A stretch of DNA of 64,000 nucleotides from Dissulfurispira thermophila (GTDB lineage: Bacteria > Nitrospirota > Thermodesulfovibrionia > Thermodesulfovibrionales > Dissulfurispiraceae): assembly GCF_014701235.1 (NCBI RefSeq), contig NZ_AP022873.1, positions 1,302,001 to 1,366,000 on the forward strand. Direction: 5' to 3'. The position numbers and the translations under genes are program-made. Within the stretch, counting starts at the first letter, position 1. Every line of letters begins with the position of its first letter. The notes under the pieces were generated by a model. The model made no database searches. It saw only the letters and a list, made by a program, of their open reading frames with translations, and was not told the origin of the DNA. Below are positions 29,566 through 32,094 of the stretch, in pieces.

Positions 29566-29937
29566 TCAAGCCTTTTTCTTACTCCTATAATCTTCTATTG
29601 CCTTTCTCAGGGCATCGGCACCGAGATTAGAGCAATGCATTTTCTGTGGTGGCAATCCACCAAGCTCCTGTGCAACTGCTTCTTTTGATATGCTTAATGC
29701 CTCATCAAGAGTCTTACCCTTTACCATTTCTGTAATCATGCTGCTAACAGCAATAGCAGCCCCACATCCAAATGTCCTGAATTTTGCATCAACAATTACA
29801 TCGTTTTCGACTTTTATAAACAACTGCATTGCATCCCCGCATGTAGGATTACCCTCCATACCTACACCATCTGCATCTGGAATCTCACCCACATTCCTTG
29901 GGTTCATAAAATGATCCATTACTTTTTGAGAATACAT
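29566..29937 (-). CDS. iscU: Fe-S cluster assembly scaffold IscU/NifU-like
   Basis: Scaffold on which Fe-S clusters form from sulfide and iron. 123 residues with the three ligand cysteines: GNPTCGDAMQLFI, RTFGCGAAIAVSS, and KMHCSNLGADALR, plus the early Asp-containing GNPTCGD. Follows iscS on the same strand, in an operon rrf2-tusA-iscS-iscU without hscA/hscB or iscA. Confidence 0.93.
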   Translation of the reverse strand: MYSQKVMDHFMNPRNVGEIPDADGVGMEGNPTCGDAMQLFIKVENDVIVDAKFRTFGCGAAIAVSSMITEMVKGKTLDEALSISKEAVAQELGGLPPQKMHCSNLGADALRKAIEDYRSKKKA

Positions 29938-30037: not shown

Positions 30038-31252
30038 CTATCTGTTGGTATAACATTTTTCTCCTTCACCGTGTTCCTCAAATCCCTTTGTGCCCCACCC
30101 TTTTGCAAAAGGAGACATTTCCCTCAACTTGCTGATAATCTGCGGGAACTCATTGATAAAATAATCCACATCTTCATCTGTGTTATCTTCGCCAAGACTG
30201 AATACTATAGAGCCCTGTGCAAGAGCCGATGGAATTCCCAGAGACAATAATATCGGAGATGATTTAAGTGCCTTAGAAGAACATGCAGAGCCGCTCGCTG
30301 CATATATACCTTTCATTGAGAGCATTAACAGCATTGCCTCTCCTTCGATGAATTCAACCACAAAACTTGCATGATGTGGCAATCTGGTCTCAGGATGCCC
30401 TGTGAGATACACATTTGGTATTTTAAGAACAGCATCTATTATTTTATTACGAAGTCTTTTGCAGTGTTCTATTCTGTTATACATCTTGCTCTTTGCAAGT
30501 TCTGCAGCCTTACCCATCCCAACTATGGCCGGGACATTCTCTGTACCTGCCCTTCTCCCACCCTCCTGAATGCCTCCATAAATAAGGGGAACTATTCTTA
30601 AACCTTCTCTTATATATAAGGCACCTGCTCCTTTTGGTCCATAAAATTGATGTGCTGCCATACTCAGAAGGTCAACACCAAGCTCTTTTACATCAATAGG
30701 GATATTTCCTGTTGATGCCACTGCATCGGTGTGAAATATTATATTTTTTTCTTTTGTTATTGATGCTATCTCTTTTATTGGCTCAATAGAGCCAATCTCA
30801 CTGCTTGCGTGAGCTACAGAAATAAGTATCGTTTCCTTTGTAATAGAGTCTTTAACAACATCAGGGTCTACAAGACCATACTTGTCAACCGGAAGATATG
30901 TAACAGCAAATCCGCTCTTTTCGAGAAATCTTGCTGAATTGAGAATAGAATGATGCTCTACCTTAGATACAATTATATGTTTGCCCTGATTCTGTTTTGC
31001 AAGGGCTATTCCTCTGAGGGCAAAATTATTTGCCTCTGCACCACTTGCAGTAAAAACTATAGTTGATGGCTTTGCATTTATCAATGATGCAACAGAGGTG
31101 CGGGCATTTTCTATAGCCTCACGGGCCCTAACTCCAAGATCATATACACTTAAAGGATTCCCAAATTCCTCCTTAAAATAAGGCATCATTGCACTGAGAA
31201 CCTCAGGATGTAAAGGATTTGTTGCAACATGGTCAAAATAACACTTTCTCAT
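30038..31252 (-). CDS. iscS: Cysteine desulfurase IscS/NifS-like, PLP lysine replaced by Gln
   Basis: 404-residue class V aminotransferase fold. VEHHSILNSARFL (active-site His), FHTDAVASTGNIPID (PLP Asp), SGSACSS (catalytic Cys loop). The segment that normally reads HKxYGPKG is AAHQFYGPKGAGALYI, so the Schiff-base Lys is Gln202 (codon CAA, 30647-30649), and the Gln usual in DAxQ is Ala179. A desulfurase without this lysine should not hold PLP covalently; Archaeoglobus IscS is a described example lacking it. It may serve as a scaffold partner for IscU with sulfide as sulfur source. The last residues (CYTNR) run into repeat sequence. Confidence 0.88.
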   Translation of the reverse strand: MRKCYFDHVATNPLHPEVLSAMMPYFKEEFGNPLSVYDLGVRAREAIENARTSVASLINAKPSTIVFTASGAEANNFALRGIALAKQNQGKHIIVSKVEHHSILNSARFLEKSGFAVTYLPVDKYGLVDPDVVKDSITKETILISVAHASSEIGSIEPIKEIASITKEKNIIFHTDAVASTGNIPIDVKELGVDLLSMAAHQFYGPKGAGALYIREGLRIVPLIYGGIQEGGRRAGTENVPAIVGMGKAAELAKSKMYNRIEHCKRLRNKIIDAVLKIPNVYLTGHPETRLPHHASFVVEFIEGEAMLLMLSMKGIYAASGSACSSKALKSSPILLSLGIPSALAQGSIVFSLGEDNTDEDVDYFINEFPQIISKLREMSPFAKGWGTKGFEEHGEGEKCYTNR

Positions 31253-31333
31253 AATTTGTCTCCTTTATCAGTTTATGAGTTGCTGAGCATATGACCAAAT
31301 AGATATAAAAGGTCATCACATTCACCCATCTAC

Positions 31334-31588
31334 TCATTTACTCGTAGTCTTTCTCACATAAAACTTGTAATAGTCTTCATCTTCATCAATTCCTAAAAAT
31401 TCATTTCCTGTCTTTTCACACCAATCAGGAATATCTTCGAGCGCACCATCATAATCAGTGAGTATTTCAAGCACCTGTCCTTTTTCAAGTCCCTTTATCA
31501 TCTCATCAAGCTTAAGCAAATGCATTGGACACATCATATAAACAATGTCTGCTGTTACATCTGCCTTTATATCATGGACAAACTTCAT
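31334..31588 (-). CDS. TusA/SirA-like sulfur carrier protein
   Basis: 84 residues with the TusA fold pattern. The Cys lies in VYMMCPMHLLKLDEMI, where the family has CPxP, so the second Pro is His. Ends with a typical strand region (YYKFYVRKT). Overlaps the end of the Rrf2 gene by 4 bp and precedes iscS, so it may hand sulfur to this Fe-S system. Classification rests on length and the Cys-Pro helix. Confidence 0.8.
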   Translation of the reverse strand: MKFVHDIKADVTADIVYMMCPMHLLKLDEMIKGLEKGQVLEILTDYDGALEDIPDWCEKTGNEFLGIDEDEDYYKFYVRKTTSK

Positions 31589-32094
31589 AATTTAAAGATT
31601 GCTAATTTTGGGCTTCTTATTTTTTTATTCCTTTGTTTGTTTGCCCTCTTAATACCTTGACTACTTGAATTTTTAAGCCCTTTATTGAAGTCTCCTGTTA
31701 TTAAATTCTTGAGGGTTATTGTTCTTAAAAATGCCTCCACCTGCTCACCGAGTGCCTTCCACAATAAATGCGTTACACAACTATCAACTCTCACACATCC
31801 TTCATCAGGGTCAAGACATGATGTAAGGGCAACAGGACCCTCTAACTCATTCAATATAGAGGCTATAGTTATACTTTCAGGACTCTCGTTCAATATATAA
31901 CCGCCCCCGGGTCCTTTTATACTCCTAATCAGTCCAGCCCTCCTGAGTTTATTGAGTATCTGCTCGAGATAAGCAATAGAAACATCCTGTCTTTCTGAAA
32001 TCTCTTTAATAGTTACAGGGGTTTTTGGATACCCCTTTGCTATCTCATACATTGCTCTGACACCATACTGCCCTTTTGTGGATAGTCTCAACAT
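31585..32094 (-). CDS. iscR: Rrf2-family regulator, IscR type
   Basis: 169-residue winged-helix regulator: MLRLSTKGQYGVRAMYEIA opens the Rrf2 domain, LRRAGLIRSIKGPGGGYIL is the wing. Three Cys in SCLDPDEGCVRVDSC have IscR-like spacing and could bind a [2Fe-2S] cluster. As first gene of the operon it probably autoregulates it in response to Fe-S status. The C-terminal 30 residues are Lys/Asn/Arg rich and variable. Confidence 0.88.
   Translation of the reverse strand: MLRLSTKGQYGVRAMYEIAKGYPKTPVTIKEISERQDVSIAYLEQILNKLRRAGLIRSIKGPGGGYILNESPESITIASILNELEGPVALTSCLDPDEGCVRVDSCVTHLLWKALGEQVEAFLRTITLKNLITGDFNKGLKNSSSQGIKRANKQRNKKIRSPKLAIFKL

Follow-up and report, generated by a model that had tools for sequence, protein, structure and literature searches.

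The window, a stretch of 64,000 nucleotides (G000:C1:1302001-1366000) within a complete genome of 2.37 Mb, carries a minus-strand operon in the order iscR, tusA-like, misS and nifU, where misS stands here and below for a desulfurase-like gene whose PLP site is lost, called the dead form (Table 1). The relatives of this genome are Nitrospirota, for the most part of the class Thermodesulfovibrionia. An earlier note on this DNA had placed an IscR-type regulator and a TusA-like protein with a CPMH motif in the operon, and gene calls and profile matches bear both out; nifU, which lies beyond the span covered by that note, also belongs to it. The regulator scored 141.5 bits against NCBIfam IscR, under the cut-off of 207.6, and its ligand pattern SC-x7-C-x5-C-x2-H resembles that of E. 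coli IscR. The TusA-like protein has Cys20 within CPMH and a second conserved cysteine, Cys57 ('WC'), and the motif and both cysteines are invariant across 109 aligned CPMH TusA-like proteins. With CPMH the window protein departs from the CPxP motif of the TusA family, the form in other lineages being CPMP. The NifU ligand residues (IscU C37/D39/C63/H105/C106) are kept throughout, or almost throughout, a set of about 147 NifU sequences. Against the NCBIfam equivalog for NifS (TIGR03402, cut-off 530.75), the desulfurase-like protein scored 495.5 bits, and a Lys-type paralogue from the same genome also remained under the cut-off at 421.8 bits. The operon is flanked by a response regulator gene and mlaC. 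No gene for IscA, HscA, HscB or ferredoxin (Fdx) adjoins it among the ORFs between 24226 and 37442, so that its layout is that of a minimal (MIS-like) system.

Table 1. Genes of the operon and residues of the desulfurase-like protein, in window positions
Feature	Position	Strand	Remarks
IscR-type Rrf2 regulator	31585-32094	-	first gene of the operon; Pfam Rrf2 133 bits
TusA-like sulfur carrier, CPMH	31334-31588	-	Pfam TusA 72.7 bits (cut-off 28.6)
IscS/NifS-type (MisS-like) protein, PLP site lost	30038-31252	-	404 aa; Pfam Aminotran_5 262.6 bits
NifU-type (IscU/MisU-like) scaffold, ligand residues complete	29566-29937	-	TIGR03419 207.5 bits (cut-off 187.9)
Gln202 for PLP Schiff-base Lys (E. coli IscS K206)	30647-30649	-	codon CAA (ttg on + strand)
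Ser151 for IscS Asn155	30800-30802	-	alignment with E. coli IscS
Ala179 (in DAVAST) for IscS Gln183	30716-30718	-	alignment with E. coli IscS
Val350 for IscS Arg354 (substrate carboxylate)	30203-30205	-	alignment with E. coli IscS
Cys324, retained sulfur-carrying Cys (IscS C328)	30281-30283	-	invariant in 152/152 dead and 27/27 Lys-type homologues
Cys400 in flexible C-terminal tail	30053-30055	-	lineage-specific gain

Gln in place of the PLP lysine, Ala in place of the conserved Gln in DAVAST and an intact Cys loop SGSACSS had been read from the window before, and all three readings stood. The extent of the loss had been set too small, as the equivalents of Asn155, Arg354, Thr76 and Ser203 are altered too, the latter two to Ala. 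The equivalents of IscS His104, Asp180, His205, Thr243 and Cys328 are kept. Asn155, Gln183, Lys206 and Arg354, invariant in 27/27 Lys-and-Arg-type homologues, are replaced together in the window protein, and a single-residue oddity is ruled out by several active-site positions being altered at once. Arg354 is found in none of 152 dead homologues and Gln183 is changed to Ala in 130 of them, while the equivalents of Cys328, His104 and Asp180 are present in all 152. Since a pattern selecting Gln at position 206 supplied many of the dead sequences, the share of Gln is biased, but the joint loss of Arg354 is not. In E. coli IscS, the exchange K206A, H104Q or Q183E abolished desulfurase activity (PMC9978102). 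Judging by these replacements, the window protein is very probably no longer a cysteine desulfurase, and we infer that the activity would be lost in the test tube. Four members of the dead clade (L053, L054, L060 and L065) keep Lys206, lack Arg354 and have Thr243 changed to Ala; from their sequences they could be intermediates or a re-use of the site. A series of PDB entries (9wep, 9wer, 9wew, 9wf8, 9wfb, 9wfe and 9wfy) follows one cysteine desulfurase through a stepwise series of alterations, among them Arg354 to Val and replacements of Gln183 that resemble those fixed by nature in the dead clade.

A decaying gene or a sequencing error might lie behind the change from Lys to Gln, given that AAA and CAA are one base apart. 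The codon in the window is CAA, not AAA, and all 29 orthologues from other genomes read HQF at the Lys site, as the alignment with homologues suggested by the earlier note brought out. Among the 120 contigs listed with the HQFYGPKG pattern, which come from many projects, Gln is encoded by CAG in 100 and by CAA in 20. Compared with congeners, the dead desulfurase had Ka/Ks ratios of 0.04-0.07, while those of NifU were 0.01-0.02 and those of TusA 0.03-0.06; Ks is near saturation, and these ratios are therefore approximate, though far below 1. The dead gene is thus under strong purifying selection. With the orthologues, the two codons and the Ka/Ks of 0.04-0.07 taken together, an error or a pseudogene is ruled out, and the chance that we attach to it is negligible.

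The residues that remain raise a different question. As His104, Asp180 and Thr243 are conserved among the dead forms, and His205 mostly so, some PLP-like ligand may still bind, and PLP or PMP may sit in the site without a covalent bond. The protein might even still be a PLP enzyme that works without the lysine, using another base or another substrate, and the Lys-less A. fulgidus structure has indeed been described as containing PLP (PMC9769115). We consider this very improbable, as Arg354, Asn155 and Gln183 are lost as well, position 206 drifts over many residue types among the dead forms, and one relative reads SGPALGAPKG.

The AlphaFold2 model of the dead desulfurase had a pLDDT of 88. The loop carrying Cys324 fell under 50, consistent with a Cys on a mobile loop. 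The best fold matches in the PDB were A. fulgidus IscS 4hvk (the best), 4r5f and 4eb5, with rmsd of 1.5-1.7 A. The comparison with A. fulgidus IscS drawn in the earlier note was thereby strengthened, as that protein has the same set of lost residues and is the best fold match (1.6 A). Going by the title of a 2015 paper by Pagnier, A. fulgidus IscS reportedly has a Cys ligand role. The C-terminal tail of the window protein is disordered and ends in a Cys motif (KCYTG or similar). A Cys lies within the last 14 residues of 91 of 107 close orthologues; among the other dead forms this holds for 1 of 39, and among Lys-type forms in other contexts for 8 of 25. Because the C-terminal segment of E. coli IscS is part of the IscU interface (PMC2854127), the tail Cys400 may act at NifU, which we note as a lead only.

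We further examined how widely the dead form is distributed. Among the matches listed, the Gln form occurs in Nitrospirota, Schekmanbacteria, Aminicenantes, Chloroflexota, Aquicultoria, Eisenbacteria and, within Thermodesulfobacteriota, in Syntrophus and relatives and in Caldimicrobium; MAG contigs can be misbinned, so that single records are weak evidence of distribution. In 247 genomes sampled from the phylum of a Syntrophobacterales bacterium (G224), 23 of the 29 best readable profile matches were dead, a share that is not a phylum frequency because the profile was built from dead forms. The residue pairs at positions 205-206 in these 23 were NQ, NP, SQ, ST, IS, PA and others, and the match that reads SGPALGAPKG has an intact GSAC loop and an adjoining CPMH TusA-like gene. 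One syntrophic deltaproteobacterial MAG (G222; L275 and L283) carries two different dead MisS, with no Lys-type copy found in its 1.9 Mb assembly. In a tree of 53 representatives, calculated with the active-site columns masked, the bacterial dead forms fell in one branch (96/87), with A. fulgidus IscS outside it and the Lys/Arg-type PDB sequence 9wep weakly nested inside. A constrained clade of all dead bacterial forms was not rejected (AU p 0.074), nor was a clade of these with A. fulgidus IscS (AU p 0.103), which lies outside in the tree. These sequences point to one or few ancient losses of the active site as the likely history.

The dead gene does not travel alone. Of 104 dead loci, 98 have a TusA-like gene on the same strand at a distance of no more than 1.3 kb, compared with 0 of 22 Lys-type loci, and a NifU gene is linked in 94 of the 104. 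In the phylogenetic test the TusA linkage amounts to one independent contrast; the counts are thus ruled out as independent events, and Fisher values for the linkage are not independent-event statistics. Six of the 104 dead loci lack an adjoining TusA, and several more Thermodesulfobacteriota dead loci, seen with short flanks only, are without TusA beside them. The link has survived different gene orders across lineages: in Thermodesulfovibrionia tusA lies upstream and encodes CPMH, and elsewhere it lies downstream of nifU and encodes CPMP or CPIP. CPMH is the form of the Thermodesulfovibrionia lineage and some others, and was rejected as a mark of the dead state, as CPMP, CPIP and CPLP stand beside dead desulfurases in other lineages. 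The orders are nfu-dsrE-misS-nifU-tusA in Schekmanbacteria (L119, nifU seen as a downstream match), misS-nifU-dsrE-tusA in Thermodesulfobacteriota (L331) and nfu-misS-nifU-tusA-nadA in Aminicenantes (L122). The Nfu-type proteins in two of these clusters (Pfam NifU, C-terminal domain) are encoded at L119:1253-1471 and L122:5168-5428. An apparent NifS-TusA fusion in L323 was dismissed, as its frame of 887 aa is a chance frame and tusA lies in another. The window's genome encodes seven TusA-like proteins in all, and a second one with CPMH (G000:C1:896090-896296, L246) has an argininosuccinate synthase-like gene close by and lies apart from Fe-S genes. Of the residues that make the TusA contact in E. 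coli, the dead MisS keeps only a part, with Asp52 changed to Glu and Trp45 lost.

We also looked at the other Fe-S systems of these genomes. In a set of 60 relatives, a genome that carries the dead gene typically has a single NifU_N gene, that of the operon; the additional NifU genes mostly encode the nif type of about 280 aa, and several genomes have them next to Lys-type NifS genes. In 16 genomes with a completeness of 90% or more, the dead gene is accompanied by the operon's NifU_N as the only one (G002, G017, G029, G031, G032, G033, G036, G038, G043, G044, G047, G050, G054, G055, G056 and G059, of which G044 is a single contig), and none of these 16 has a SufB/SmsB match. Across families, f10 lacks both the dead gene and NifU and has SmsCB, and f11 has SmsCB and a nif-type NifU without the dead gene. 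SmsB-like genes (>150 bits) were found in 2 of 45 genomes with the dead gene versus 4 of 6 without, counted in genomes at least 90% complete and with kinship ignored. In view of the sole NifU_N and the exchange with SmsCB across families, the operon looks like a housekeeping Fe-S system standing in for SmsCB, and these anaerobes probably rely mainly on it for Fe-S assembly. In the window's genome a full SUF or SMS is ruled out, since the only match there is a short SufB/D-like protein of 315 aa (about 70 bits) with no adjacent SufC; as this protein is present, we do not claim the operon as the only system there. The SufB/D-like gene stands in a row (G000:C1:1965500-1971900; L244:5026-11419) with a YeeE/TsuA-type sulfur transporter, a TusA-like protein (CPAC), a histidine kinase, an NtrC-type regulator and a rhodanese, which is possibly a second sulfur-trafficking locus. 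In one Thermodesulfobacteriota genome (G362), a second, divergent NifU_N gene lies directly downstream of nifU in the dead-MisS operon (L325:3323-3739).

The desulfurase machinery is lost, yet the gene is conserved and travels with a sulfur-carrier gene, so the cells probably take cluster sulfur from elsewhere. Building on the loss of catalytic residues, the conservation of the Cys loop and the scaffold, the purifying selection, the linkage and the replacement of SmsCB, we propose that the window protein would be a catalytically dead MisS subunit of a minimal Fe-S assembly system, serving as a platform for TusA and NifU; for this reading as a whole, belief and doubt are evenly balanced. The dead MisS dimer would still bind the scaffold NifU and keep the mobile Cys324 loop. 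A persulfide on the TusA-like protein would be passed to Cys324, acting as a relay or a ligand, or straight to NifU when the two proteins sit together on the dead MisS, and the cluster would then be built on NifU. Inorganic sulfane sulfur, sulfide chemistry or a separate Lys-type desulfurase would supply the sulfur, rather than cysteine in the dead site. The earlier note had suggested sulfide or a TusA-like carrier as the supply, which fits the data, and the link to TusA is stronger than could be known from the window alone; we infer the route itself, with TusA as donor, the direction of flow and the original source. Taken on its own, the TusA-fed route is roughly a toss-up. Because E. coli TusA receives sulfur from IscS, the proposed reverse flow has, to our knowledge, no direct precedent. 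The single phylogenetic contrast, the dead loci without an adjoining TusA, the partly kept TusA contacts and the retained His104, Asp180, Thr243 and His205 also weigh against the proposal. In its favour are the dsrA gene of the window's genome and the ability of E. coli IscS to bind IscU and TusA simultaneously (PMC11302665). In sulfur oxidisers, DsrE and TusA proteins pass sulfur along (PMC4175335). With somewhat more doubt than belief, we extend the proposal to large groups of anaerobes, in which a desulfurase-dead minimal system would be fed from inorganic sulfur by a TusA-like relay, in places DsrE and TusA, bypassing cysteine and using TusA in the direction opposite to that in E. coli.

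The main rival to the TusA-fed route is a direct supply of sulfide on the Archaeoglobus model, in which the dead MisS would be a structural partner giving the loop Cys as a ligand to the cluster forming on NifU, and the TusA-like protein would do something else. A. fulgidus IscS, which shares these losses, is devoid of desulfurase activity and lends a Cys as ligand to the [2Fe-2S] cluster that IscU carries (PMC7585200), an E. coli iscS mutant can be rescued by sulfide in a way that depends on IscU (PMC13015791), and sulfide feeds the archaeal SMS (PMC12192291). Moreover, the window's genome encodes dsrA (532.6 bits, over the cut-off), so its organism handles sulfite and sulfide. We nonetheless regard direct supply as unlikely, since it leaves the tight and repeated linkage with TusA, sometimes with DsrE, unexplained. 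Alternatively, cysteine could still be the source, with a Lys-type desulfurase passing sulfur to the TusA-like protein and on to NifU on the dead MisS platform. The search for a second, Lys-containing desulfurase did turn one up in the window's genome (G000:C1:1862013-1863131), most relatives also have a Lys- and Arg-containing desulfurase, and sulfur transfer from IscS to TusA is established in E. coli (PMC2854127). This gene is set between rapZ/rpoN-type and ATP synthase genes and has no Fe-S gene in its neighbourhood, and one relative (G003, 98% complete, 160 contigs) has the dead gene only, which makes this source improbable.

Recent papers describe SMS as the one known Fe-S system that does not include a cysteine desulfurase (PMC11559095). 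The dead-MisS operon would be a MIS-like system that has lost desulfurase activity throughout a bacterial lineage and also outside it; in many genomes no other scaffold system can be recognised, and many MAG genes annotated as cysteine desulfurase are probably misannotated. Lys-less IscS is already known in archaea, with Archaeoglobus IscS as the precedent, and forms of MisS without the Lys may already figure in the published MIS phylogeny (Garcia et al. 2022). Against the literature searched, which covered few subscription journals, several points appear new: how widely the form occurs in bacteria, the loss of Arg354 together with Gln183 and Asn155, the linkage to TusA and DsrE, the alternation with SmsCB, and a C-terminal Cys specific to the lineage.

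Among known systems, A. fulgidus IscS (4eb5, 4hvk; the sequence used is that of 4eb5, identical over 382 residues) likewise lacks the PLP Lys and Arg354, has Ala for Gln183 and keeps the loop Cys and an IscU-type partner; it reads A183, D206, S243 and L354 at the IscS positions, and differs in having Asp (D199) instead of Gln for the Lys, in having lost His205 too and in keeping Thr76 and Ser203. Methanosarcina acetivorans IscS1 also lacks the catalytic lysine and adjoins IscU (PMC7585200), but is archaeal and biochemically uncharacterised. E. coli IscS has the same fold, and its dimer can hold TusA and IscU together (PMC11302665); there, in contrast, the sulfur originates from IscS and TusA accepts it for tRNA thiolation. 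The operon lacks the IscA, HscA, HscB and Fdx of the ISC system. It shares with MIS (MisS-MisU) the two-gene core of IscS/NifS and IscU homologues without IscA, HscAB and ferredoxin genes; the MIS desulfurase is described as active (PMC12192291, PMC11559095), whereas that of the window operon is dead by its sequence, and the window operon adds TusA-like and IscR-type genes. Like SMS (SmsC-SmsB), which uses sulfide as its source (PMC12192291), it would assemble Fe-S clusters without a dedicated cysteine desulfurase, but on an unrelated scaffold, and in families f10 and f11 SMS takes the place that the dead-MisS operon has in the window's lineage.
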